In this document: piece after piece, positions 32,497-47,332 of the stretch
Layout of the letters: each line of letters opens with the position of its first letter
Position numbering within the stretch: the first letter of the stretch is position 1
DNA from: Thermodesulfobium acidiphilum
GTDB taxonomy: Bacteria; Thermodesulfobiota; Thermodesulfobiia; Thermodesulfobiales; Thermodesulfobiaceae
Assembly (NCBI RefSeq): GCF_003057965.1
Contig: NZ_CP020921.1
Location: forward strand, 208,100-272,099
Direction of reading: 5' to 3'
Length of the DNA: 64,000 nt
The notes under the pieces: model-generated
The model's database searches: none
Told to the model about the DNA's origin: nothing
What the model saw: only the letters and a program-made list of their open reading frames with translations
Position numbers and translations under genes: made by a program

Positions 32497-33522
32497 ATGA
32501 AGATTGCTATGATTTCACCAATTGCGTGGAGAACTCCTCCAAGGCATTATGGACCCTGGGAACAGGTTACATCATTGCTAACAGAAGGCCTTGTAAAAGA
32601 GGGTTTAAATGTAACCTTGTTTGCAACTGCAGATTCTATTACTTCTGCAAAGCTTGTTTCTGTAGTGCCAACAGGCTATGAAGAAGATAAAGAAGCTGAC
32701 CCAAAGGTCTTAGAGTACCTTCATATCTCTAACGTTTTTGAGATGGCAGACGAATTTGACATAATACATAACCAATTTGACTTTATGCCGCTTTGCTATT
32801 CTAGACTTACAAAAACGCCAATGGTTACTACTATACACGGCTTTTCATCTGAAAAAATATTGCCTATTTACAAAAAATATAACAAACACGTTAGTTATGT
32901 ATCTATTTCAAACTCGGATAGATATCCAAGCCTTGATTATATTTCTACGATATATCACGGAATTGATATTAACAATTTTCCATTTAACCCGGATCCGAGG
33001 GATTATCTTTTATTTTTTGGAAGGATGCATCCGGATAAGGGCGCTCATGATGCAATTAAAATAGCAAAATTTTTTAAAATGAAACTTTTTTTGGCAGGTC
33101 CTATACAGGATGAGGCTTATTTTAAAGAAAATATACAGCCTCACCTATCAGAAGATATAAAATATTTAGGCAGCGTTGGCCCTGAAAAAAGAGGAGAGTT
33201 GCTTTCTAACGCTATATGTTTGCTTCACCCTATATACTTTAATGAACCGTTCGGTTTGAGCGTAATTGAATCATTAGCTTGTGGTACTCCTGTCTTAGCT
33301 TATAATAGGGGAAGTATGAAGGAGATACTTGATGAATCAATTGGGATATTGGTTAGCTCTTTTGAGGAGGCAGTAGAGAAGTTTGGGCTTATTTATAAAA
33401 TAAAAAGAAGTGATTGTAGAAAATATGTGGAAAGAAAGTTTACTTCTCAAAGAATGGTAAGTGAATATATTGAAGTCTATAAAAGGATATTAAATAGCAA
33501 TCAAGGAGGAATGATACAATGA
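32497..33522 (+). CDS. GT4-family glycosyltransferase
   Basis: A 341-residue GT-B glycosyltransferase. It has the N-terminal acceptor motif SPIAWRTPPRHYGPWEQVTSLLTEGL, HGFSSEK, the central GRMHPDKGAHDAIKIAK and the donor-binding E-x7-E region EPFGLSVIESLACGTPVLAYNRGSMKE. The donor may be GDP-mannose or another nucleotide sugar; sequence cannot settle it. The next gene, a GH130 phosphorylase, overlaps its stop as ATGA, so the two act together. Confidence 0.9.
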   Translation: MKIAMISPIAWRTPPRHYGPWEQVTSLLTEGLVKEGLNVTLFATADSITSAKLVSVVPTGYEEDKEADPKVLEYLHISNVFEMADEFDIIHNQFDFMPLCYSRLTKTPMVTTIHGFSSEKILPIYKKYNKHVSYVSISNSDRYPSLDYISTIYHGIDINNFPFNPDPRDYLLFFGRMHPDKGAHDAIKIAKFFKMKLFLAGPIQDEAYFKENIQPHLSEDIKYLGSVGPEKRGELLSNAICLLHPIYFNEPFGLSVIESLACGTPVLAYNRGSMKEILDESIGILVSSFEEAVEKFGLIYKIKRSDCRKYVERKFTSQRMVSEYIEVYKRILNSNQGGMIQ

Positions 33523-34469
33523 ATTTAGAGTTATATAAAGGTTCTGGAATAGTAAAGAGATATATATTTAATCCTGTTCTTACTAAATATGACGTTCCTT
33601 ATGAAGTTTCAACAGTTTATAATCCGGCTATTACTATGTATCAAAATAAGTATATATTAATATTTAGAGCAGCTAAGCTTAATGGCAGGTCAATTTTAGG
33701 GAAAGCTATTTCTGAAGATGGTCTTAATTTTGAAGTTGAAAGAGAACCATTTATGGTACCTGAAAGCGATGGGTATTTTGGCAGATATGAAAGTGCTGGC
33801 ATAGAAGACCCACGAATTACTAGAATTGGTGATGAGTACTTTATTACCTATAGCGCTTACTCTGAATATGGGGTAAGGATTGGCCTTGCAAAGACGACCG
33901 ACTTTAAGAGAGTTGAAAGAATTGCTCTAATTACAAGTGCAGATCATAGAAATATAGTAATTTTCCCTGAGAAATTTGGTACTGACTACGTTAGACTGGA
34001 TAGACCTCACTCTGATATAATCCCCTGGTCCATCTGGATTTCATATTCAAAGGATCTTATACACTGGGGTAGATCGGAAATTTTGATAAAGCCGAAGCCA
34101 TATCATTGGGATGAGCTAAAAATTGGTCCGGGTGCACCCCCTATAAAGACAAAGGACGGTTGGCTTAGTATTATTCACGGAGTTTATATGACTATGAGTG
34201 GTTCTGTTTATAGATTGGGCGTAGTTTTACACGATTTAGAAGACCCAGGTAAAATTTTGGGTTTATCTGACGAATGGATTCTTGAACCAGAGGATCATTG
34301 GGAAAGAGTTGGTTATGTTCCCAACGTTGTGTTCTGTTCAGCTGCTCTGAAGGAAGGCGATTTTATTAGGCTGTGGTGGGGAGCTGCTGATAGCGTAGTG
34401 TGTACAGGAATCGCAAGAGTGGACGAACTTGTAGAAAAGTGTCTAAAAAATAAAAGAAAACCCTTATAA
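33519..34469 (+). CDS. GH130-family glycoside phosphorylase/hydrolase (copy 1)
   Basis: GH130 enzymes are five-bladed beta-propellers, most of which split beta-mannosides with phosphate to mannose-1-phosphate. The 316-residue protein has the family landmarks YNPAI near the N-terminus, GIEDPRIT (catalytic aspartate), DHRNIVIFPEK, GPGAPPIKTKDGWLSIIHGVY and LWWGAADSVVCTGIA. ATG overlaps the upstream glycosyltransferase stop. A second GH130 gene lies at 39284-40237. Its 3' end faces mqnC with 12 bases between. Confidence 0.9.
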   Translation: MNLELYKGSGIVKRYIFNPVLTKYDVPYEVSTVYNPAITMYQNKYILIFRAAKLNGRSILGKAISEDGLNFEVEREPFMVPESDGYFGRYESAGIEDPRITRIGDEYFITYSAYSEYGVRIGLAKTTDFKRVERIALITSADHRNIVIFPEKFGTDYVRLDRPHSDIIPWSIWISYSKDLIHWGRSEILIKPKPYHWDELKIGPGAPPIKTKDGWLSIIHGVYMTMSGSVYRLGVVLHDLEDPGKILGLSDEWILEPEDHWERVGYVPNVVFCSAALKEGDFIRLWWGAADSVVCTGIARVDELVEKCLKNKRKPL

Positions 34470-34481
34470 CAATTTATCTTT

Positions 34482-35504
34482 CTATTTTATAATGTTATAA
34501 AAAGCATCTCTTTGGGCACTTTCAAAACCAGCTGATTTTATGAGATTTTCTAGTTCTTCTGTGCTTTGAGGCTTGTGGTTTTGTCCCATTGCGCTTGCAA
34601 CCACGTTTTCTTCAAGCATCACTGAACCTAGATCATTTGCCCCGCAAAGTAGAGCAACTGGCGCTACATCTTTTCCTACTGTAAGCCACGATGCACCTAT
34701 ATTTGGTATATTATCAAAAAAAATTCTTGATAGTGCTACAGTTTTTAAATAATCAATTTTGTTTTCCCATTTTGTTTTACTTTTTGATTTAAAAATCCAG
34801 GGGATAAATGCTATGAAGCCTCCAGTTTCATCTTGTAGATCTCTTACTTTTTTAAGATGTTGCAATCTATCATCAATCGTTTCGCCGAAGCCTATTACCA
34901 TGGTAGCAGTACTCATTAAACCTGAATAGTGAGCAATTCTATGAATGTGTAGCCATGTAGAAGACGAGATCTTTTTTGGGCTAATTGTTTGCCTAATTTT
35001 GTCGACCAATATTTCTGCTCCAGCTCCAGGGAGCCCCTGAAGTCCAGCATCCTTTAATTTTTCTATTACTTCCTTATAAGAGATACGTTCAATTTTTGAA
35101 AAATGATCTATTTCTGCAGCTGATAGTGAATGAAGCACTAAATTGGGATATTTTTTTTTAATGTGTTTGAATATTTCTATTATATCTATAAGCCTAAACT
35201 CTGGGTCCAGTCCACCTTGAAGCATAATTTGTGTTGCATTAAGCTTTACAGCTTCGTCTACTCGTTTATAAATTTCAGCCTTAGAAAGCCTGATAGAATT
35301 TTTACTTCCTACAGGTACGCTAAAATAGCAGAATTTACAGTTTGAAGTACAAACGTTACTATAATTTATATTTCTATCTATAATATAAGTTACTTTTTTG
35401 TGTCCGAACTCAGCCCTTGTTTTGTCAGCCAATTTTGCAAGCTCAAATAATGGCAAATCGAAAAGTTTTTTTGCCTGTGGTATGCTTATTCTATTTTTTA
35501 TCAT
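34482..35504 (-). CDS. mqnC: Cyclic dehypoxanthinyl futalosine synthase MqnC (radical SAM)
   Basis: MqnC cyclises dehypoxanthinyl futalosine in the futalosine route to menaquinone. The 340-residue protein has the radical SAM cluster CTSNCKFC at about residues 52-59, QGGLDPEF, the LPGAGAEILVD motif typical of MqnC and SWLTVGKDVAP. ATG at 35504 is preferred over the GTG two codons earlier, because AGAGGTG ends there. It is the last gene of the mqnDEAC operon. The paralogue mqnE has a similar fold but a different cysteine context (CVERCGFC). Confidence 0.92.
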   Translation of the reverse strand: MIKNRISIPQAKKLFDLPLFELAKLADKTRAEFGHKKVTYIIDRNINYSNVCTSNCKFCYFSVPVGSKNSIRLSKAEIYKRVDEAVKLNATQIMLQGGLDPEFRLIDIIEIFKHIKKKYPNLVLHSLSAAEIDHFSKIERISYKEVIEKLKDAGLQGLPGAGAEILVDKIRQTISPKKISSSTWLHIHRIAHYSGLMSTATMVIGFGETIDDRLQHLKKVRDLQDETGGFIAFIPWIFKSKSKTKWENKIDYLKTVALSRIFFDNIPNIGASWLTVGKDVAPVALLCGANDLGSVMLEENVVASAMGQNHKPQSTEELENLIKSAGFESAQRDAFYNIIK

Positions 35505-35523
35505 GTGCACCTCTTAAAATTTA

Positions 35524-36267
35524 TTAATAATTTAAGCTTTTTATTAATTTTTCTAATTCAAATAGTCCCTTCAAGTCATTCGTGTCAAGGATATATGACA
35601 AATTTGAATAATATTCATTTGCGGATGTCTTTTTATATTTCCAATCTAAATTATTTTTTTCTATTTCGGCGAACTTTAAAGCAAGCGAATAGGTTTTAAT
35701 AAAGTCTAATAAAAGATCGTTTCTAATTTCTTTTCGCGCGGCAAGCAGCGAAAAAACAGTGGGCAAATTAGTTTGTTGTTTCCAGAGTTCTGACACGTCG
35801 TATACGAAACTATTATTTTTATTATCCATAAAGCTTAAGGCATCGTCACCAATAATTACCTGAGCGCAGAAGTTACTTGAATTCTTAGAGAAAATAGGAT
35901 TGATTCTATAAAATTTTCTAAGTATACATATTACCATGCTATTGATAGTATTTGAGGTGTTCGATAACCTTATTATCTTTTTGTCAAGATTTTCAATTGG
36001 TTCGTTTGAGACAAGAAAGGTGCTAAGAACTGGTCCGTAGCAAGAAAGACCAAATGGTAAAATTGGTTTGAGCAAATCCTGATTGTTAATCCAGGTAACT
36101 GAAGATATTGTTGCAACGTCTAGTTTATCGTTTAATAACATATCGTTTAGGGTTGCGGGATCTGACAGGAAAAATTTATAACCAATTTTTTCAAGTCCCA
36201 GTTTCACCGGCAAAAAATTGTAAAACTTTATCAAACCAAACCTTAAAAAATTTTCATTAGTTTTCAT
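35524..36267 (-). CDS. mqnA: Chorismate dehydratase MqnA
   Basis: MqnA dehydrates chorismate to 3-enolpyruvylbenzoate, the first step of the futalosine route. The 247-residue protein has the periplasmic-binding-like fold with LRFGLIKFYNFLPV at its start, NDKLDVATISSVTW, CYGPVLSTFLVSN, IIRLSNTSNT and VIIGDDAL. The frame is open further upstream, but ATG at 36267 is preferred: GGGAG lies nine bases before it. It is somewhat shorter and more divergent than typical MqnA, but its place between mqnE and mqnC supports it. Confidence 0.85.
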   Translation of the reverse strand: MKTNENFLRFGLIKFYNFLPVKLGLEKIGYKFFLSDPATLNDMLLNDKLDVATISSVTWINNQDLLKPILPFGLSCYGPVLSTFLVSNEPIENLDKKIIRLSNTSNTINSMVICILRKFYRINPIFSKNSSNFCAQVIIGDDALSFMDNKNNSFVYDVSELWKQQTNLPTVFSLLAARKEIRNDLLLDFIKTYSLALKFAEIEKNNLDWKYKKTSANEYYSNLSYILDTNDLKGLFELEKLIKSLNY

Positions 36268-36307
36268 TTTTTTGTCTCCCGATTTTTCTAAGATAAACAA
36301 ACAATTT

Positions 36308-37315
36308 TTATCCTATCTTTTCGTAAAGAGAATTTCTTTCGAAAGGAACGAGACCAATATTCGTTATCATATCCTTTAGGCTTTCAGCCGATAATCCTCC
36401 TGGTTCTGGAGATCCTCCTTCGTGCATAATTTTCTCGTCTACTAAAGTGCCTTCAAGATCATCTGCGCCAGTCCAGAGCGCCATGAGCGCGCAATCTTGT
36501 CCTATTGATGGCCAATATGCTTTTATGTGAGGAATTGACAAAACTAAGCGCGAAATTGCAATTGTTTTAAGGGTTTTAATACTTGTTGCTGGTTTTATAT
36601 GTCTAAATTTTGTGTTTAAAGGTTGAAATTTCAATGGGATAAAGGCCTGGAAGCCTCCTGTTTTTTGCTGTAGATCTTCTAAAAGATTCAGGTGTTCCAA
36701 TATATCGTCAAAAGTTTCAAAATGGCCATATAACATAGTAGCATTTGATTTTAATCCAATTTTGTGGGCAATTTCATGAATTTTGAGCCACATTTCTGGC
36801 GAGGTCTTCTTAGTTAGAAGCTTTGTTCTCATAGAATCTTTTAATATTTCTGCTCCCCCACCTGTAAGGGATACGCTGCCGTGGTTTAAGAGATCTTCAA
36901 TTATGCTTTCTATTGGTTTGTTCTCTTCCTTTGCGTAGAACTCAACTTCTACTGCCGTAAGAGATTTTATTGTAGCTTTTGGAAGCGTCTTTCTAATTGA
37001 ATCTAGGATTTTAAGGACTTCATTCCACTTCAAATCTGGATTAAGACCTGAAGTAATATGAACCTCGCTTAACCATGTTAAACCCTGTAGCTTAGAGGCA
37101 ACGACCTCTGGCGATAGCTTATATGCATCAAAGTCATCTTTGTTCCTGGCAAAAGGACAAAAGCCGCATCTTTCTACACAAATGTTGGTAAGGTTTAGAT
37201 GAATATTTTTTGCAAAGAAGACGTTTTTGCCGTATAGAGAGCTTTTCTTTTTATTGGCCTCGTTGAACAAATCTATTGGATTATCTATTAAATTTTTTAA
37301 GTCTGATCTATTCAT
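36308..37315 (-). CDS. mqnE: Aminodeoxyfutalosine synthase MqnE (radical SAM)
   Basis: MqnE joins 3-enolpyruvylbenzoate and S-adenosylmethionine to give aminodeoxyfutalosine. The 335-residue protein has the cluster motif CVERCGFC (near residues 47-54), HITSGLNPD, TGGGAEIL, NATMLYGH and QAFIPLKFQP. It overlaps the mqnD stop by eight bases. mqnB is not present; an MTA/SAH nucleosidase elsewhere could supply that step. Confidence 0.92.
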   Translation of the reverse strand: MNRSDLKNLIDNPIDLFNEANKKKSSLYGKNVFFAKNIHLNLTNICVERCGFCPFARNKDDFDAYKLSPEVVASKLQGLTWLSEVHITSGLNPDLKWNEVLKILDSIRKTLPKATIKSLTAVEVEFYAKEENKPIESIIEDLLNHGSVSLTGGGAEILKDSMRTKLLTKKTSPEMWLKIHEIAHKIGLKSNATMLYGHFETFDDILEHLNLLEDLQQKTGGFQAFIPLKFQPLNTKFRHIKPATSIKTLKTIAISRLVLSIPHIKAYWPSIGQDCALMALWTGADDLEGTLVDEKIMHEGGSPEPGGLSAESLKDMITNIGLVPFERNSLYEKIG

Positions 37316-38132
37316 TTAATATGCTCTCCGGTATGTCTGGAATAGAAGGAATTAAAGATTTTTCAAATGCAACCTTATACAATATGTTTAGCGATTTGTA
37401 CAAACTTTCATGAAATTTAATAGTATAATCGTTTACATACATATTTACAAATTTTTCATTCATTTCAGAATTAAGATCTCTGCCAAATTTCATGGCATGT
37501 GTGAGTGCTTCCTCAGGATGTGCTTTCCCCCATTTTATGGATTCTCTTAACAGGTTATTTATCATAATTCTTTCGTTTCTTAAACTTTTATGAATAGCGT
37601 TGCCACCTAATGGCAAGGGTAAATTATATTTTTCATACCACCACTCTCCAAGATCTACTATCTTTTTTAATCCCATATTTTTGTAAGAAAGTTGTCCTTC
37701 ATGAATTAATAGACCTGCATCAACTTCTGAGTTAATAACTTTATCCATTATTTGATCGAAAGGAACGAATACTTCTTTGTGATCCTGTGAATATATGCGA
37801 AAAACTAAAGTTGCAGTAGTGAGCTCTCCCGGAAGGGCAATAACTTTGTTCTCCAGATTTGAAAGGGGATTTTTTGAAATAAGTATTGGGCCGTATTTAT
37901 CTCCTACACTTGAACCTACGCTCATAAGATCATACTTGTCTATAATGTATGGTAGGGCATGATAAGAAATTGCGCTAATGTGATAGCGTCCGTTTATTGC
38001 TTCCTTGTTAAGAGTTTCTATATCTGATAGGGTTTCTTCTAATTCATATTTTGATTCGATTTTCCCATGCGTTAAGGCATAAAACATAAATGCATCATCA
38101 GGATCTGGGCTGTGTGCAACTGTTAATTTCAT
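37308..38132 (-). CDS. mqnD: 1,4-dihydroxy-6-naphthoate synthase MqnD
   Basis: MqnD converts cyclic dehypoxanthinyl futalosine to 1,4-dihydroxy-6-naphthoate. The 274-residue protein has the binding-protein-like fold and the family motifs AHSPDPDDAFMFYAL at the N-terminus, ISAISYHALPYI, YGPILISK, LIHEGQL and LPLPLGGNAIHK. ATG follows a clear TAGGAGG. It begins 20 bases after the tetR stop, so tetR-mqnD-mqnE-mqnA-mqnC form one operon. Confidence 0.93.
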   Translation of the reverse strand: MKLTVAHSPDPDDAFMFYALTHGKIESKYELEETLSDIETLNKEAINGRYHISAISYHALPYIIDKYDLMSVGSSVGDKYGPILISKNPLSNLENKVIALPGELTTATLVFRIYSQDHKEVFVPFDQIMDKVINSEVDAGLLIHEGQLSYKNMGLKKIVDLGEWWYEKYNLPLPLGGNAIHKSLRNERIMINNLLRESIKWGKAHPEEALTHAMKFGRDLNSEMNEKFVNMYVNDYTIKFHESLYKSLNILYKVAFEKSLIPSIPDIPESILNE

Positions 38133-38152
38133 TAAAAACCTCCTAAAATTAA

Positions 38153-38716
38153 TTATTTTTTAAGTATCTTTAACAATTTTTCAATAAAAAAATCTGAAAA
38201 TTCTACAAGTGGTTTATCGGACGTAATAGAATCGATCACAAACTCACTTATTGAACCAACAATAATTGTTACGACGATATATTTTTCTACTTCTTCCATT
38301 TTTTGATTGGAAAGAATATTTAAAAAAAGCTTTTCCAACTTTTTCCTTACAGAAAATCTTTGTTCTTCGAATTGAGGCCCAAGACTAAAGGCTTCTATAA
38401 AGACGAATTTTGTTAGTTCACGATATTTTTCTAATATTCTAAAACCTTCCTTCAAAGCTGACCTAAAAATTTCTTCGAAAGTGTTTCCTTTAGCTTTGTT
38501 TTCAATTTTTTTGATAAGTTGATTGCTTAACTCTTCCACTAACTTTATTACCAGGTCTCTTTTTCCGGGGAAATAAAAGTAAAACGCACCTTTAGATGTG
38601 TTTGAATCTTCTACAATCTCATCAACGTTTGTGTAATGATACCCTTTGTTTGAAAAAAGCCTTAGTGCACTTTTAAGTATTTTATTTTTTGTAATAGAAG
38701 GTTTCTTGTTTTTCAT
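38153..38716 (-). CDS. TetR-family regulator of the menaquinone operon
   Basis: A 187-residue TetR/AcrR-family repressor. The helix-turn-helix lies at about residues 10-55 (ILKSALRLFSNKGYHYTNVDEIVEDSNTSKGAFYFYF); the rest is the helical ligand-binding and dimer domain, whose ligand is unknown. It is the first gene of the unit with mqnDEAC. The start codon lies only six bases downstream of its -10 box, and there is no ribosome site, so translation is probably leaderless. A perfect palindrome 35 bases upstream of the start covers the -35 box and is the likely self-operator. Confidence 0.88.
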   Translation of the reverse strand: MKNKKPSITKNKILKSALRLFSNKGYHYTNVDEIVEDSNTSKGAFYFYFPGKRDLVIKLVEELSNQLIKKIENKAKGNTFEEIFRSALKEGFRILEKYRELTKFVFIEAFSLGPQFEEQRFSVRKKLEKLFLNILSNQKMEEVEKYIVVTIIVGSISEFVIDSITSDKPLVEFSDFFIEKLLKILKK

Positions 38717-38722
38717 ATTGAT

Positions 38723-38751
38723 ATGATAGCATTTTTTGTATAATTTGTAAA
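38723..38751 (-). promoter_or_regulatory. Promoter of tetR-mqnDEAC
   Basis: On the minus strand: -35 TTTACA (38751-38746), exactly 17 bases, then -10 TATCAT (38728-38723). Transcription should begin at or next to the tetR ATG, at about 38716, giving a leaderless mRNA. Confidence 0.65.
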
Positions 38752-38764
38752 CCGACTGGTCGGT
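38751..38764. promoter_or_regulatory. TetR-type operator
   Basis: The palindrome ACCGACTGGTCGGT (six-base arms, two-base centre) is unusually GC-rich for this region and matches the layout of operators of TetR-family regulators. It overlaps the first base of the -35 box of the tetR promoter, so binding should block transcription of the whole menaquinone operon. Confidence 0.75.
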
Positions 38765-38821
38765 CTAAAAATTATACAAAAATAATATATAAATTAATTA
38801 TTTCTAATAAAAATAGAATTC

Positions 38822-39166
38822 TCAGAAGGCTTTATTCAAAAATTCAAGAAGAATTGTTGCGTTGTTTAGATGGCTTTTAGAAGAGTATAAAAGAGTAACA
38901 GTAGAATTTTTTTCAATTTGTTTGATTTTTTCTATAAGTTCACCATTTCTCTCTAGTTCTGAAAAGTATCTTTTTTTAAATTCTTCGAATTTTTCAGGGT
39001 CATGTGAATACCATTTTCTCAGTTCATTTGTTGGTGCAATTTCCTTTAGCCAGAGATCTATTGCTGCCGTTTCTCTTTTTATGCCTCTTGGCCATAGTCT
39101 ATCTACTAATATTCGATAGCCGTCTTGTGTTGAATATCTTTCATAAATACTCTTAATTCTTATCAA
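38822..39166 (-). CDS. DUF488-family protein (YeaO-like)
   Basis: A 114-residue protein of the DUF488/YeaO family, function unknown. It has the family motifs YRILVDRLWPRG, WLKEIAPTNELRKWYSHDPEKFEEFKKRY and TLLYSSKSHLNNA. TTG at 39166 follows GGGAGG at five bases. It lies between tetR and the second GH130 gene, and has its own transcription direction and promoter region in the spacer to 39283. It is about 105 bases upstream of tetR on the same strand and could be co-transcribed or not. Confidence 0.85.
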   Translation of the reverse strand: MIRIKSIYERYSTQDGYRILVDRLWPRGIKRETAAIDLWLKEIAPTNELRKWYSHDPEKFEEFKKRYFSELERNGELIEKIKQIEKNSTVTLLYSSKSHLNNATILLEFLNKAF

Positions 39167-39283: not shown

Positions 39284-40237
39284 ATGGGTACTCATGCTCT
39301 CTTTAAAAGATATGAAGGAAATCCAATTATTACAGCAGAAGATGTATCCTGCGAAGCTCATACCGTTTTTAATCCTGCAGCCGCAAAGTTCGAAAACAAG
39401 GTTATTCTTGTTTTGAGAGTAGAAGAACAAAGAGGGTTTTCTTACCTTATAAGAGCTTTTAGTGAGGACGGCGTTAATAATTGGAAAATTGACGATAAAC
39501 CCTTTATGATTCATGAGCCCCAGATGGGAGAGCAATTCTGGGGATTAGAAGATCCCAGACTAACTTATATGGAAGAATTTGATCAATATTATCTAACTTA
39601 TGTTTCGTTTGCACCAGGTGGGCCACAACTTTCTTTAGTTACTACTAGAGATTTTGAAAGAATATGCAGGCACGGTAATCTTTTTTATCCGGATAACAAA
39701 GACGGTGCCTTTTATCCAAAAAGATTTAACGGTAGATGGGCTTTGATCCATAGACCATATGCAAGGGGAAGGGCTGAAATATGGCTTTCTTTTACCCCCG
39801 ATCTAAAGCACTACGGGGATCATACCTGTATCATCCCAGTTCGAGAGGGTTGGTGGGATTGTACAAGGGTTGGTATGGGACCCCCACCAATAGAGACTCC
39901 TGAGGGATGGCTTGTAATATATCATGGAGTTAGGACTACTGCCTCCGGCTCTCTTTATAGGGTTGGATTGGCTTTATTTGATTTGGATGATCCCACTAAA
40001 CTTATCTGCAGGACCAATAGATGGGTTCTGGCACCAGAAACGCCATATGAGCTGATTGGAGATGTCCCGGGAGTGTGCTTTCCATGTGGCGCTATATGCG
40101 ATGAGAATACTAGAGAGGTAATGCTTTATTATGGAGGTGCTGATACATCGACTTGTGTGGCATTTTCTACTATTGACGATATACTTGACTTTATCAAAGA
40201 AGACCAAAAAATAGGAAGGACTTTTTACTCGTTATGA
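39284..40237 (+). CDS. GH130-family glycoside phosphorylase/hydrolase (copy 2)
   Basis: A 317-residue GH130 enzyme, clearly a paralogue of the protein at 33519-34469. Landmarks: HTVFNPAAAKFENKVILVLRV, WGLEDPRLTYM (catalytic aspartate), DGAFYPKRFNGRWALIHRP, GMGPPPIETPEGWLVIYHGVR, SLYRVGLALFDLDDP and LYYGGADTSTCVA. GHR/P and GPPP residues that bind sugar and phosphate are kept. ATG at 39284 follows GGGGTG. Its stop overlaps the next glycosyltransferase start as ATGA, repeating the GT-GH130 pairing in the reverse order. Confidence 0.92.
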   Translation: MGTHALFKRYEGNPIITAEDVSCEAHTVFNPAAAKFENKVILVLRVEEQRGFSYLIRAFSEDGVNNWKIDDKPFMIHEPQMGEQFWGLEDPRLTYMEEFDQYYLTYVSFAPGGPQLSLVTTRDFERICRHGNLFYPDNKDGAFYPKRFNGRWALIHRPYARGRAEIWLSFTPDLKHYGDHTCIIPVREGWWDCTRVGMGPPPIETPEGWLVIYHGVRTTASGSLYRVGLALFDLDDPTKLICRTNRWVLAPETPYELIGDVPGVCFPCGAICDENTREVMLYYGGADTSTCVAFSTIDDILDFIKEDQKIGRTFYSL

Positions 40238-42525
40238 GAGGTACTACAAAAGGAGCATCTCCAGATTTTAATGTGGCTTTTGTGGGCACCTATGTGCCAA
40301 GGCTATGCGGAATTGCTACTTTTACACATGACATTGCAAAATCTGTTGCTATGTGGTATCCAGATGACGCTTTTGAAAACAGGTGTGTAAGAGTTGTTGC
40401 AATGTCAAATGGTGTCTATTCATATCCCAGGGAAGTTTTTTTTGATATCAGAGAAAAGTTTAAAACAGATTATATAAAGGCAGCTGAGTTCATAAATATT
40501 TCAAATGTCAATGTAGTAAGCCTTCAACACGAATTTGGTATATATGGTGGTGAACATGGAGGTTATGTTCTTGATTTTCTAAAAAATTTAAAAAAACCTG
40601 TTGTAACTACCCTTCACACTGTTTTAGAGAAGCCAATAGAAGGTCAAAAAGAAGTTTTAGAAGAGATCTGCAGCCTGTCTTCAAGAATTGTTGTTTGTGC
40701 ACAAAAAGCTCAGGAAATATTAGAAAGGGTCTATAGAGTTTCATCTGAAAAGATTTCTATGATTTATCACGGAGCTCCTGATGTTCCTTTTATGGATCCC
40801 TCATATTATAAAGATATCCTTAATCTTGAAGGAAAGACCGTTATTTTGACCTTTGGACTCTTAGGGCCCAGCAAGGGGATAGAATATGGTATAGAGGCTT
40901 TGAGCAAAATTTATAGAGATTATCCAAACGCTGTATACGTAGTACTTGGTGCAACTCATCCAGAAGTAAAAAGACTTTACGGAGAAAGCTATAGAATTAG
41001 CTTGCAAAAAATGGCTTATGAGGAAGGGATAGTTGATAACGTAATTTTTATTGATAGATATGTATCTTTCGAAGAATTGATGAACTTTTTAATTATGGCT
41101 GACATATATCTTACACCTTATTTGTCTTTAGAACAGATAGTTTCAGGAACCTTGACTTATGCAATTGCAGCTGGGAAAGCTATAATTTCTACTCCATATT
41201 GGTATGCTCAAGAAATGCTTCAAGATGAAAGAGGTGTTCTTGTTCCGTTTAGAGATAGTGATGCCCTATCCAATGCACTTAGAAGACTCTTAACAGATGT
41301 TCCTTACAGAAATAGATTGAGAAAAAACGCTTATGATTTTGGCAGAAAGATGATCTGGAAGAACGTTGCAAGAGAATATATTGAGCTTTTTGACGAGGCA
41401 ATTAAGACTTATTCTAAGGAAAAAAATTTTATATACATTTCAAAAAAAGACTTAATTGGAAAGGAATCATTTCAGACAAAGCTTCCTTCTGTTCACCTTG
41501 CGCATCTAAAATTCTTAACTGATGAAACAGGGATATTACAACACGCCCTATACAATATGCCAAATAGAAATCACGGCTACTGTATTGATGATAATGCTAG
41601 AGCTTTTATGGTTCTTATCTTGTATTATGAACTTTTCAAAGATCAGAGCATACTTTATCTTTTGTATAGATTCTTATCTTTTATTCACAATGCTTTTGAA
41701 GAAAGAACTGGCAGGTTTTTGAACTTTTTAAAATATGATAGAACGTGGATTGATGATTTTAGTGAGGATGCGCATGCAAGAACTCTTCTTGCTTTAGCTA
41801 CAGCAATACAATGGCCAGCAGTTCCAGAATTAATTCCTATTTGTGCTACTATTTTTGAAAAGGGTATAAAACAAGTTACGGATTTTACTTCTGTAAGGGG
41901 AATTAGCCTTTCTATTATTGCTTGTGACAAATTTGTTAGGACTTATCCGGGGGCTAAAGAGATAAAGGATATATTAATTAATCTATCAGAGAAGCTGTTC
42001 GATCTTTATAGGAACAATATTTCTGATGATTGGATTTTTCCTGAAAATATACTAACTTATGATAATGCAAGACAACCTCAAGCTTTAATTAGAGCTGGCC
42101 AGCAACTTGGCAGTGATGAAATGATTGAACTTGGTATTAGGAGTCTAAGGTGGTTAATAGAAATCCAAACAAATCAAGAAACACAATATCTTAGCATTAT
42201 AGGGAATAGAGGGTGGTATAGGAGAGGATCTAGTAAGGCTCAATTTGATCAACAACCGATAGAATTAAGTAGCCTTTCTTGTGCGTGTATAGATGCTTAC
42301 TTTCAAACTGGTGACAAATATTTTTATAACAATGTGATGAAAGCCTTAAGGTGGTTTTTAGGAGAAAACGATTCTTTTTGTCCTGTTGCAAAAGTTGAAA
42401 CGGGCGGTTGTTATGATGGCTTAGAGCCTCAGGGCGTTAACAAAAATATGGGAGCGGAGTCAACAATATCTTATTTGATGACATTACTTCACGCATATAA
42501 ATTAATATTTAAAAGAGGCGATTGA
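40234..42525 (+). CDS. GT4 glycosyltransferase fused to an alpha-helical (six-hairpin-like) domain
   Basis: A 763-residue two-domain protein. Residues about 8-395 are a GT4 glycosyltransferase: AFVGTYVPRLCGIATFTHDIA, LQHEFGIYGGEHGG, HTVLEKP, FGLLGPSKGIEYGIEAL and YLSLEQIVSGTLTYAIAAGKAI. Residues about 425-763 look like an alpha/alpha-barrel: NRNHGYCIDDNARAFMVLI, EDAHARTLLALA, LTYDNARQPQALIRAG, FDQQPIELSSLSCACIDAY and GLEPQGVNKNMGAESTISYL. The second part resembles helical carbohydrate-active enzymes; I cannot name its reaction. It likely makes or remodels the glycan that the GH130 phosphorylase acts on. Confidence 0.85.
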   Translation: MRGTTKGASPDFNVAFVGTYVPRLCGIATFTHDIAKSVAMWYPDDAFENRCVRVVAMSNGVYSYPREVFFDIREKFKTDYIKAAEFINISNVNVVSLQHEFGIYGGEHGGYVLDFLKNLKKPVVTTLHTVLEKPIEGQKEVLEEICSLSSRIVVCAQKAQEILERVYRVSSEKISMIYHGAPDVPFMDPSYYKDILNLEGKTVILTFGLLGPSKGIEYGIEALSKIYRDYPNAVYVVLGATHPEVKRLYGESYRISLQKMAYEEGIVDNVIFIDRYVSFEELMNFLIMADIYLTPYLSLEQIVSGTLTYAIAAGKAIISTPYWYAQEMLQDERGVLVPFRDSDALSNALRRLLTDVPYRNRLRKNAYDFGRKMIWKNVAREYIELFDEAIKTYSKEKNFIYISKKDLIGKESFQTKLPSVHLAHLKFLTDETGILQHALYNMPNRNHGYCIDDNARAFMVLILYYELFKDQSILYLLYRFLSFIHNAFEERTGRFLNFLKYDRTWIDDFSEDAHARTLLALATAIQWPAVPELIPICATIFEKGIKQVTDFTSVRGISLSIIACDKFVRTYPGAKEIKDILINLSEKLFDLYRNNISDDWIFPENILTYDNARQPQALIRAGQQLGSDEMIELGIRSLRWLIEIQTNQETQYLSIIGNRGWYRRGSSKAQFDQQPIELSSLSCACIDAYFQTGDKYFYNNVMKALRWFLGENDSFCPVAKVETGGCYDGLEPQGVNKNMGAESTISYLMTLLHAYKLIFKRGD

Positions 42526-43404: not shown

Positions 43405-45474
43405 ATGGGGAAAACTATCAAAACAATTAGTTTAGCCTCTCATGTTGGGGCAGGGAAGACTTCACTAACTGAAGCGCTTTTGTTTTATGCAAAGAAAATT
43501 TCAAGGTTGGGTTCTGTAGATTCTGGGAATACAGTTACGGATTATGATGTAGAAGAGATAAAGAGAAAGATGACTCTTTCGCTTTCTGTAGTAAACTTTG
43601 AGGAGGAAGGCACTAAATACAACATTATAGATACTCCAGGATTTTTTGACTTTGAAAGCGATGTTATAGCTGCAGAAAGCGTGTCAGAGGGCCTGGTTTT
43701 GTTGTTAAATGCTACAAGTACGCTGGAGGTTGGCATTGAGAAGATCTTAAAAAGATTAAAGGCGAATCCAAAACCATTTATGGTTGTAGTAAACAAGATG
43801 GATAAAGAGGGGGCAGATTTTTTTAATGCGGTTAATGAGTTAAGATTAAAGTCGTTAGGCTTTAATATTGCTTGTATGTATCTGCCTTTTGGTAATGCAG
43901 GTGAATTTAAAGGCATGGTTCATGTGATGAGCAAAAAAAGCATTGTTTTTGATGGTGATTTCAAATTTCATATTGAAGAATCATTTCCAGAAGAATTGGA
44001 AACAAGAATTGAGGAAGAACAAGAGAGACTAAAAGAAGCTGCAGCTGAGGGCGATGACACCATTTTGGAAAAATATCTTGCTGGAGAAGATCTAAGCGAG
44101 GAAGAAATTGTTTCAAGTTTGAAAAATGCAGTAAAGCTTGGCAAGACTGCTTTGGTAATACCTGTTTCTTCTGTAAAGGGCTACGGTATAGCTCAACTGG
44201 TTAGGGCGTTTGGTTACTACTTCCCAGATTATAGCGAAAAAGAAAACCTTGAAATGTACTCAGAAAAGGAGATGAAGGTTTTCCCGATTAATTCAGACTC
44301 TGAACTCATCATACAAATTTTTAAGACCGTGCTCGATCCCTTTGTCGGAAAAGTTAGCTTTGCAAAAATTCTAAGCGGTTCATATAAGGGAGAATCCGTT
44401 TTGTACAATGTTACCAAGCAACAGGAGGAAAGGATAGCAAGCGTTAGCTTTCCGTTCGGAAAAGAACCTGTTATTACTAAGGAAGCCGATTGTGGGGATA
44501 TTGTTACCTTTTCCAAGCTCCAGATTACAACTACCAACGACACTCTTTCACGCTCTAAAATAAAATACGAACCAAAGAAAATAGAGTTTCCAAAACCAAC
44601 CTTTTTTATGGGAGTTTATCCAAAAGTAAAAGGCGATGAGGATAAACTTGGTTCTGCTATTATAAAGTTTATTGAAGAAGATCCATCAATGTTTTATGGA
44701 AAAAGTCCAGAAACAGGTGAATTTTTGCTTGGTGGTTTGGGGGATATCCAGATGGACGTTCTAATGGAGAAAGTTAAAAGAAGGTTTAAGGTAGAAGGCA
44801 CCCTCGTAAAGCCAAAGGTTGCTTATAGAGAATCTATTAAAATTCCGGTTGTAGCGGAAGGCAAGCACAAAAAGCAAACTGGAGGACATGGTCAGTATGG
44901 TCATGTCATAATAAAATTTGAACCTATTGGTTATGAAGAAGAATTTATTTTTGAAAGTCAGATCGTAGGTGGAGTCGTCCCAAAACAGTATGTACCTGCT
45001 GTGGAAAAGGGTTTACGCGAAGTTCTTGGCAGCGGACATTTGGCAGGCTATCCAGTAATAGGCATTAAGGCAATTTTAGTAGATGGTTCTTATCATGAAG
45101 TGGATTCTAATGAACTTTCATTTAAAATGGCTGCACATCTTGCTTTCAAAAAGGCTATGGAAAAGGCGAAACCAGTTTTACTTGAGCCAATTAACTATAT
45201 TGAGGTAACGGTACCGAAGGACTTTACTGGAGATGTTATGGGAGACCTGAATTCCAAGAGAGGAAGAATTCAAGGGATGGATTCTATAAAGGATTCTGAA
45301 ACTGTTATAAAGGCATACGTTCCTCAAAGTGAAATTGTAAATTATGCAATGGATTTAAGATCCATTACTCAGGGTAGGGGTTCTTTTGTAACCAGATTTG
45401 ATCATTTTGAAGAAGCCCCTCCTCAGATTGCCGAAAAAGTTATAAAGGAAGCAAGTGTTGAAAGTAGCAAATAA
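43405..45474 (+). CDS. Elongation factor G paralogue (EF-G-like GTPase)
   Basis: A 689-residue protein with all five EF-G domains: G1 SHVGAGKTS, G3 DTPGFFDF, G4 NKMD, domain II from about 290, and domains III-V with GGHGQYGHVIIKFEPI and GDVMGDLNSKRGRIQGMD. The effector-loop motif RGITI of true EF-G is replaced here (EIKRKMTLSLSV), and the G1 histidine-aspartate context differs, so this belongs to the divergent paralogue group rather than the main translocase. Related extra EF-G copies exist in Thermus and many anaerobes, with no fixed function. Its stop lies inside the start of the ligase gene. Confidence 0.88.
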   Translation: MGKTIKTISLASHVGAGKTSLTEALLFYAKKISRLGSVDSGNTVTDYDVEEIKRKMTLSLSVVNFEEEGTKYNIIDTPGFFDFESDVIAAESVSEGLVLLLNATSTLEVGIEKILKRLKANPKPFMVVVNKMDKEGADFFNAVNELRLKSLGFNIACMYLPFGNAGEFKGMVHVMSKKSIVFDGDFKFHIEESFPEELETRIEEEQERLKEAAAEGDDTILEKYLAGEDLSEEEIVSSLKNAVKLGKTALVIPVSSVKGYGIAQLVRAFGYYFPDYSEKENLEMYSEKEMKVFPINSDSELIIQIFKTVLDPFVGKVSFAKILSGSYKGESVLYNVTKQQEERIASVSFPFGKEPVITKEADCGDIVTFSKLQITTTNDTLSRSKIKYEPKKIEFPKPTFFMGVYPKVKGDEDKLGSAIIKFIEEDPSMFYGKSPETGEFLLGGLGDIQMDVLMEKVKRRFKVEGTLVKPKVAYRESIKIPVVAEGKHKKQTGGHGQYGHVIIKFEPIGYEEEFIFESQIVGGVVPKQYVPAVEKGLREVLGSGHLAGYPVIGIKAILVDGSYHEVDSNELSFKMAAHLAFKKAMEKAKPVLLEPINYIEVTVPKDFTGDVMGDLNSKRGRIQGMDSIKDSETVIKAYVPQSEIVNYAMDLRSITQGRGSFVTRFDHFEEAPPQIAEKVIKEASVESSK

Positions 45475-47332
45475 TGCCTTACAATCTAATTTTATTTTAT
45501 TAGCTCAGGTCTTCGACAAGCTTGAAAAAGAGACCTCGAGACTAAAGATGATGGAGATTCTTGCAGATTATTTTGAAAATATTTCTCCAGAAGATGTAAG
45601 AATTGCTATCTATCTTTTATCAGGAAAAACAGGACCATCCTTTGAAGCTGTAGACTTTGGGGTGGGAGAGAAGTTTGTTATTGAGTCTTTGTTGAGAATT
45701 TATGGGGGGTTTAAGGTCGAGATTGAAGATTTATATAAAGAATTAGGAGATCTTGGATTAGTAGCAAAAAATATAGTGAAGGATAAAGAAAGCTCCTTAA
45801 CTCTTAATGAGGTTTTTAGTTATCTTAAAACAATAGCTCTTACTTCAGGGCCTAGTTCCCAAGACAAAAAGATAGAACTTCTTACCGAAATGCTAGACAG
45901 AGCAAGTTCTTTAGAGGCTCTTTACTTAGTAAGAATCATTCTTGGTAGACTTAGATTGGGAGCACAGGATGCTACTGTAATTGAGGCTCTTTCCTTTGCC
46001 AGGGTCAAGAGTAAGGATTTGAAGCCAAAAATCGAGAGATGCTATAACCTGACTTCTGATCTTGGTTATGTTGCTTATATATTATTTAAAGAGGGAGAGG
46101 AAGCATTAGATTTTGTACGTGCTATTGTCGGAAATCCTATTAGGATGGCACTGGCAGAAAGAATGGAAAACCCAGAAGAGATCTTTAATAAAGTAGGCAA
46201 GTGTATTGTAGAGCCTAAATATGATGGATTTCGATGTCAGGTTCATAAAATTGACAATAAGGTTAAAATTTATTCGAGAAATCTTGAAGATAATACTTAT
46301 ATGTTTCCAGAAATAGTCGAATCTACAATTAAGTTTTGCAGAGCAAAGGATTGTATTTTTGAAGGAGAAGCAATTAGTTTTGATCCTGAAACCCTACGCT
46401 TTATGCCCTTTCAAATAACTGTCCAAAGAAAGAGAAAGCATAATATCTTAAAGGTAGCTGCAAAATTTCCGTTAAGACTAGAAGTATTTGATCTGCTTTA
46501 CAAAGATGGCCTTGATATTACATCAAAACCTCTATTTGAAAGAAAAAAGCTCCTAAATGACACAATAGTGAAAAATGAAACGATTGTAATATCTGATTCC
46601 TATGAGGTTGACAGTCCAGAAAAAATAAAGAACTTGTTTGAGAATTACGTTTCTCAGGGCATGGAAGGAATAATGATAAAGAGATTAGATGGAGTATATC
46701 AGGCAGGCTCACGGAATTTTAACTGGATAAAATTGAAGAGATCTATGAAACAATCAATTCTCTCCGATACGATTGATGCTGTTATCATGGGATATTTTTA
46801 TGGAAAAGGGCAAAGAATAAAGTTAGGGATAGGATCTTTGTTGATAGGTTTGTATGATCCTGAAATGGATTGTTTTGAAACAATAGCGAAACTAGGTTCA
46901 GGATTTACTGAGGAAGAATGGATGGAACTTCTTAAAAATCTTGAAGAAATAAGGACTAACTTCAAACCTAACAATTATGTATCAGAAATAAATCCTGATT
47001 TTTGGGTAAAACCAAAGATAGTAGTTGAGGTTGAAGCAGATGAAATAACAGTTAGTCCTGTACATACTGTCGGAAGAAAGGGATTGAATAAAGATTATTT
47101 AAATAATTTGCCCACAGGAAGTGGCTTTGCACTTAGGTTTCCTAGAGCAAAGAGAATAAGATATGACAAAAGTCCCTTTGATTCTACTACGCCAAATGAA
47201 ATTTATGAAATGTATGAACTCTCAAAAAACAAAAAGAGTAAGGATATTTCAGAAAATTCTGTTAATTTAGATTCCACAAAGTTGCTAAAAAAAACTAAAA
47301 TGAAGGATAAAGATAAGACTTTATTTGACTGA
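45455..47332 (+). CDS. ATP-dependent DNA ligase, archaeal/LigB type
   Basis: A 625-residue DNA ligase of the archaeal-eukaryal ATP-dependent class. An N-terminal DNA-binding domain (about 1-225) precedes the nucleotidyltransferase core: the catalytic lysine K255 in VEPKYDGFRCQ (motif I), the FEGEAIS glutamate (motif III), QRKRKHNI, EGIMIKRLDG (IV), NWIKLKRSM (V), then an OB domain to about 590. The C-terminus is a lysine-rich tail. TTG at 45455 overlaps the EF-G stop by 20 bases. Most bacteria rely on NAD-dependent LigA, which is not in this window. Confidence 0.92.
   Translation: MLKVANNALQSNFILLAQVFDKLEKETSRLKMMEILADYFENISPEDVRIAIYLLSGKTGPSFEAVDFGVGEKFVIESLLRIYGGFKVEIEDLYKELGDLGLVAKNIVKDKESSLTLNEVFSYLKTIALTSGPSSQDKKIELLTEMLDRASSLEALYLVRIILGRLRLGAQDATVIEALSFARVKSKDLKPKIERCYNLTSDLGYVAYILFKEGEEALDFVRAIVGNPIRMALAERMENPEEIFNKVGKCIVEPKYDGFRCQVHKIDNKVKIYSRNLEDNTYMFPEIVESTIKFCRAKDCIFEGEAISFDPETLRFMPFQITVQRKRKHNILKVAAKFPLRLEVFDLLYKDGLDITSKPLFERKKLLNDTIVKNETIVISDSYEVDSPEKIKNLFENYVSQGMEGIMIKRLDGVYQAGSRNFNWIKLKRSMKQSILSDTIDAVIMGYFYGKGQRIKLGIGSLLIGLYDPEMDCFETIAKLGSGFTEEEWMELLKNLEEIRTNFKPNNYVSEINPDFWVKPKIVVEVEADEITVSPVHTVGRKGLNKDYLNNLPTGSGFALRFPRAKRIRYDKSPFDSTTPNEIYEMYELSKNKKSKDISENSVNLDSTKLLKKTKMKDKDKTLFD

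Follow-up and report, generated by a model that had tools for sequence, protein, structure and literature searches.

Organization of the tetR-mqn locus

The window, the whole 64 kb stretch of DNA analysed here, lies within the single-contig Thermodesulfobium genome of 1,774,794 bases. On its minus strand it carries a gene for a 187-amino-acid TetR-family regulator without cysteine (tetR, 38153-38716; PF00440 match), followed by mqnD (37308-38132; VitK2_biosynth, 241 bits, Pfam), mqnE, encoding aminofutalosine synthase (36308-37315), mqnA (35524-36300; VitK2_biosynth, 121 bits) and mqnC, encoding cyclic dehypoxanthinyl futalosine synthase (34482-35510). An earlier note on this DNA had described these genes in this order on one strand, with 20 bases between tetR and mqnD, and comparison with Pfam and NCBIfam bore this out. 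The gap (38133-38152) contains a strong Shine-Dalgarno sequence for mqnD, AGGAGG, read directly at 38139-38144. The best models for MqnE and MqnC were TIGR03700 (343 bits, not reaching the cut-off of 435) and TIGR03699 (399 bits, below the cut-off of 428), and Pfam identifies both proteins as radical SAM enzymes. With MqnA, MqnC, MqnD and MqnE encoded together, the locus qualifies as a futalosine pathway operon, two of the four assignments falling under strict cut-offs. Judging from the alignment of relatives, which begins at about residue 10-12, mqnA probably starts at an ATG near 36267 rather than at the listed TTG.

Genes resembling glycosyltransferases and GH130 phosphorylases flank the mqn operon on both sides (32497-34469 and 39284-42525), as if the operon split a single sugar-metabolism cluster, and this arrangement is conserved across the genus. 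Further along, 45455-47332 encodes a 625-amino-acid protein that reads like an archaeal-type ATP-dependent DNA ligase, which would be unusual for a bacterium; no family-library match stands behind this label.

The putative operator and promoter region

Upstream of tetR, on the same strand, is an inverted repeat, ACCGAC-CA-GTCGGT, at 38751-38764 (ACCGACTGGTCGGT; ACCGAC-TG-GTCGGT on the forward strand), which we predict to be an operator. It had been described as a perfect operator overlapping the -35 box of the only promoter. Both arms are indeed perfect, but the central TG breaks the palindrome. The overlap of the repeat with the -35 box, TTTACA (38746-38751, conserved in all four genus genomes), amounts to a single base, so that the repeat abuts the box and does not cover it. 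A -10 box, TATCAT (38723-38728), preceded by TG, follows after a 17-base spacer and lies 6 bases ahead of the tetR ATG; it reads TATYAT in all four genomes, and was assigned by consensus match only, without transcript data. To call this the only promoter was too strong. A second -10-like sequence, TATAAT, read directly on the same strand at 38771-38776, lies upstream of the operator and may mark an alternative promoter, and beyond it a DUF488 gene (38822-39166), also on the tetR strand, stops about 58 bases short of the operator with no terminator seen. The TATAAT sequence is not conserved in the other three genus genomes. In one genus member (L074) no intact DUF488 gene was found next to tetR, so that the gene does not belong to a conserved operon; read-through from it into tetR in the species analysed here is not excluded.

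No Shine-Dalgarno sequence is visible ahead of tetR. The absence of such a sequence, together with an ATG only 6 bases past the conserved -10 box, recurs in all four genus genomes and suggests that the tetR transcript may be leaderless.

A search of the 1.77 Mb genome for the palindrome with zero or one mismatch returned only the copy upstream of tetR. From base composition, about 0.015 chance matches to its 12 fixed bases would be expected genome-wide. Five matches with two mismatches were found, all within long open frames, so no wider operator regulon was detected in this genome.

The earlier note had named two outcomes that would refute its reading: absence of tetR from the side of mqn in close relatives, and occurrence of the operator beside unrelated genes only. 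The order tetR-mqnD-mqnE-mqnA-mqnC was kept in all four genus genomes, each of which contains a single copy of the operator at the same position upstream of tetR. Within the upstream region, GACCGACYAGTCGGTTTACAAAT and the -10 box (TATYAT) are conserved in the four genomes and the remaining spacer has diverged, which leaves a clear footprint at the site and its promoter. Placement of tetR next to mqn by chance was ruled out by this comparison together with the cross-phylum comparison described below. A second TetR gene of the genome (C1:1064586-1065044) was rejected as a menaquinone-linked candidate; the genes behind it look like those for TolC and an HlyD/RND adaptor.

A TetR subfamily linked to menaquinone genes

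A first search for relatives of the window TetR returned proteins from Chloroflexota, Aquificaceae, Actinobacteria and one 'Clostridiales' contig. Among the closer relatives, ACCGACNNGTCGGT, or a form of it, was found just upstream of tetR. A profile built from ten subfamily members (A2) was run against 386 diverse genomes and gave a sharp gap, members scoring at least 187 bits and other TetRs at most 107. By this profile the subfamily is present in 35 of 43 genomes of a second phylum; it is also present in 95 of 396 genomes of one Chloroflexota class.

We read 93 loci, all outside the genus: an initial set of 13, 40 from the second phylum and 40 from the Chloroflexota class. In the initial set there were one men locus, eight with an ABC transporter and menA and/or ubiE, one with menA and ubiE, one with ubiE, and two with transporter parts only. 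The second phylum gave 13 men loci, two mqn loci, eight with an ABC transporter and menA, one with menA, two with an ABC transporter only, ten belonging to a suf branch and four in which nothing was recognised. Almost all loci of the Chloroflexota class (39) carried men genes in the order menF-D-B-E, the remaining one having an ABC transporter with menA and ubiE. Menaquinone genes (men, mqn, menA or ubiE) were thus present at 75 of the 93 subfamily loci and at none of the 20 control loci, taken around the other TetRs with the best matches (Fisher p = 4e-12, which overstates independence since the loci are related). The motif ACYGACNNGTCRGT was found upstream of tetR at 87 of the 93. The operator is therefore not confined to unrelated genes, since the same TetR subfamily and operator mostly adjoin menaquinone genes in other phyla.

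Individual loci illustrate the range of these neighbourhoods. In L046 (Chloroflexota), tetR is followed by menF, menD, menB and menE. In L034 (Anaerolineae) it is followed by genes for a substrate-binding protein of the NMT1 type, a UbiA prenyltransferase, the ATPase of an ABC transporter and a permease; menA is on the opposite strand. The most telling locus is L179, from the second phylum, where the exact window site ACCGACTGGTCGGT precedes a full mqn operon in the order tetR, a UbiA-type gene (mqnP), ubiX, ubiD, mqnE, mqnA, mqnC and mqnD; the UbiA-type, ubiX and ubiD names come from our reading of the sequence. At L153, tetR is separated by 18-19 bases from mqnE, which is followed by mqnA. 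In Chloroflexota members the motif stands after a -10-like sequence and before the start codon.

The suf branch consists of paralogous TetRs (L165, L166, L174, L175, L177, L178, L180, L182, L184 and L188). Their motif is a variant, ACTGACCAGTCAGT or a similar form, and they lie not far ahead of genes for Fe-S assembly (suf). The identity of sufC and sufB was checked at two of the ten loci.

The operator alone was rejected as proof of a menaquinone regulon, because efflux-linked Aquificaceae TetRs and PaaR share its arms, and because a looser ACTGAC form was found near tetR at five of the 20 control loci.

Family, fold and subfamily membership of the window TetR

The window protein belongs to the TetR/AcrR family by its helix-turn-helix (TetR_N, PF00440, 53.7 bits against a cut-off of 24), which is its sole Pfam domain. 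An AlphaFold model (pLDDT 92.4) has nine helices and matches solved TetRs at Z 19, as expected of the two-domain all-helical fold. The closest solved folds were FadR, including its stearoyl-CoA complex, FasR with C20-CoA, and aq_1058. Such matches between a model and solved structures say little about the ligand, because many TetRs score equally near Z 18. Among named families, the best match was the FadR model NF053878, aligned over residues 11-167; at 53.3 bits, about a quarter of the curated cut-off of 200, membership of FadR was rejected on score.

Several lines of evidence place the protein in the menaquinone-linked subfamily. Both features that mark the other loci are present at the window locus, namely the operator ACYGACNNGTCRGT just upstream of tetR and adjoining men, mqn, menA or ubiE genes. 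Where helices 6 and 7 meet, the protein carries a ligand-domain signature, L112, G113, E117 and R120; these residues occur in 80-100% of the members linked to menaquinone, against 5-23% for generic TetRs and 0-25% for the efflux type of Aquificaceae. When the C-terminal domain alone was used as query, subfamily members headed the list, ahead of all other TetRs in the set. An HMM of the subfamily built without the genus ranked the genus above all outsiders, by a margin of only about 8 bits. A careful tree grouped the four genus proteins with 19 subfamily rows on a long branch with support 93/93, just below the usual threshold, and in a wider quick tree the fork joining the genus to the subfamily was unresolved. 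On this comparison of sequences, membership of the window protein is likely but not certain.

A candidate importer of a menaquinone precursor

Twelve of the 13 genomes of the initial set have no men operon at the tetR locus, no MqnA/MqnD and no MenD above cut-off; the thirteenth, which has a men operon, has MenD. Likewise, no MenD and no MqnA/MqnD pair were found in the eight genomes of the second phylum with an ABC transporter and menA (G388, G389, G399, G401, G402, G407, G408 and G409), G389 having a single PF02621 gene. These importer-type genomes retain menA, and often ubiE, beside the transporter. NMT1-type ABC genes with menA, often also with ubiE, stand behind a subfamily TetR at L033-L037 and L039-L041 in Anaerolineae and at L150, L152, L156, L157, L161-L163 and L172 in the second phylum. 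Since menA is kept beside the transporter though MenD and the MqnA/MqnD pair are missing, the simplest reading is that the NMT1-type transporter would import a ring precursor, which MenA then prenylates; import itself is a prediction. Gene absence in draft genomes is a caveat, but a weak one over twenty genomes. Ravcheev and Thiele (PMC4746308) predicted uptake of menaquinone precursors in general terms without naming an importer, and the subfamily loci point to a candidate for the system argued for there.

Proposed mechanism and alternatives

We consider it probable, though well short of established, that tetR-mqnDEAC is an autoregulated operon in which a local TetR repressor controls menaquinone supply. 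Gene order, a unique and conserved site, recurrent linkage and likely subfamily membership were observed by computation; DNA binding, repression and ligand are inferred for the window TetR, for which there are no binding or expression data. TetR would bind the palindrome at the -35 box and block RNA polymerase, shutting off tetR and mqnDEAC together, and a small molecule in the C-terminal domain would alter its affinity for DNA. The gene arrangement reported in the earlier note is thus confirmed, and its interpretation, that menaquinone synthesis is tied to a small ligand of this TetR, is supported; the choice between repression and activation, and the ligand, remain unproven. The repressor sign rests on the Chloroflexota members, whose motif position between a -10-like sequence and the start suits a repressor, and is carried over to the window by kinship. 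Against the autoregulated-repressor reading are the long branch of the genus, the HMM margin of about 8 bits and the open fork in the wider tree, the ten subfamily members that head suf genes, and the use of the same operator arms by efflux-linked Aquificaceae TetRs and PaaR.

Across phyla, the subfamily would set menaquinone supply, whether the cell relies on men, on mqn or, as predicted, on importing a ring precursor. Because the subfamily is found with either pathway and with the importer type, the ligand is inferred to be a shared compound, such as (demethyl)menaquinone; route-specific intermediates such as futalosine or succinylbenzoate are argued against, since the ligand should be common to men, mqn and import. 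Candidates would be menaquinone, demethylmenaquinone and the polyprenyl diphosphate used by MenA/MqnP. That the subfamily is a dedicated, route-indifferent sensor of the menaquinone pool in at least three phyla, controlling men, mqn or, where a genome has neither de novo pathway, an ABC importer with MenA/UbiE, and that this importer is the postulated precursor uptake system, we put forward only tentatively, at somewhat less than even chances. A regulator subfamily that tracks the product and not the enzymes offers a direct way of learning what is sensed.

The protein could instead be a FadR-like sensor of acyl-CoA (lipid status) that couples menaquinone output to membrane lipid synthesis without sensing any quinone-pathway compound. 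The nearest solved structures, FadR with stearoyl-CoA and FasR with C20-CoA, and the best named family match (FadR, residues 11-167) speak for this, but 53 bits against a cut-off of 200, the tie of many TetRs near Z 18, which makes the fold match weak evidence, and the lack of a fatty-acid operon among loci with identified genes leave it unlikely. FasR, the second structural group found, is in mycobacteria an activator that recruits RNA polymerase from its bound site, and a TetR just upstream of the -35 box could act in this way on the tetR-mqn promoter. Were transcription to start at the tetR ATG, the site centre would fall near -41.5, a classical activator position. The -35 box, however, matches the consensus well and seems not to need an activator, and the Chloroflexota motif lies downstream of the -10-like sequence, next to the start codon; we regard activation as improbable.

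Even less credit is due to a TetR of efflux descent that responds to a drug or toxin, stands beside mqn by chance and mainly controls itself. Relatives in Aquificaceae that share the recognition helix and the operator do head TolC-HlyD-MFS operons, but they form a separate branch without the ligand-domain signature, the mqn linkage is kept in all four genus genomes, and linkage to menaquinone genes recurs independently with both pathways. We give the least weight to a sensor of redox or Fe-S status through which menaquinone would be matched to iron-sulfur supply: ten paralogues stand at the head of sufC-sufB loci, and two enzymes of the operon, MqnE and MqnC, are radical SAM proteins, but the window TetR has no cysteine, and hence no thiol switch or ordinary Fe-S ligand, and the men enzymes are not Fe-S proteins. 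Sensing of the quinone/quinol ratio itself by the window TetR is not excluded.

Relation to known regulators

Menaquinone, or vitamin K2, is an electron carrier of the cell, and to our knowledge little is known of how bacteria set its level. In the open-access literature searched, no TetR was found described as a regulator of men or mqn genes. The mechanism is of an ordinary class. As far as that literature shows, the menaquinone target and the linkage across phyla and pathways are undescribed; this looks like a switch, hitherto undescribed and shared widely, that controls how much menaquinone is supplied.

FadR of Bacillus (3whc, 5gp9) and FasR of M. tuberculosis (6o6n) have the solved folds nearest to the window TetR over its whole length, and are likewise local TetR-type regulators with a lipid-sized pocket. 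They differ from it in sequence (about 20% identity, with a FadR model score far below the cut-off) and also in having operators unlike the window site and fatty-acid genes as targets.

PaaR of Burkholderia cenocepacia is a TetR-type repressor with an inverted repeat, ACCGACCGGTCGGT, which mutation showed to be needed for control (PMC2770484). The repeat has the same arms as the window operator, but it lies between -35 and -10 and its target is phenylacetate degradation; the likeness drawn here rests on the operator alone. The efflux-linked TetRs of Aquificaceae (L043, L044 and L047; solved relative aq_1058, 2eh3) share the recognition helix SKGAFYFYF with the window TetR, and in Aquifex (L043, L044) the same operator lies 17 bases ahead of the start. 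Unlike the window protein, they head TolC-HlyD-MFS operons, lack E117 and R120 and form a separate branch (100/100). In the Aquifex case, TetRs whose ligand domains differ make use of a single type of operator.
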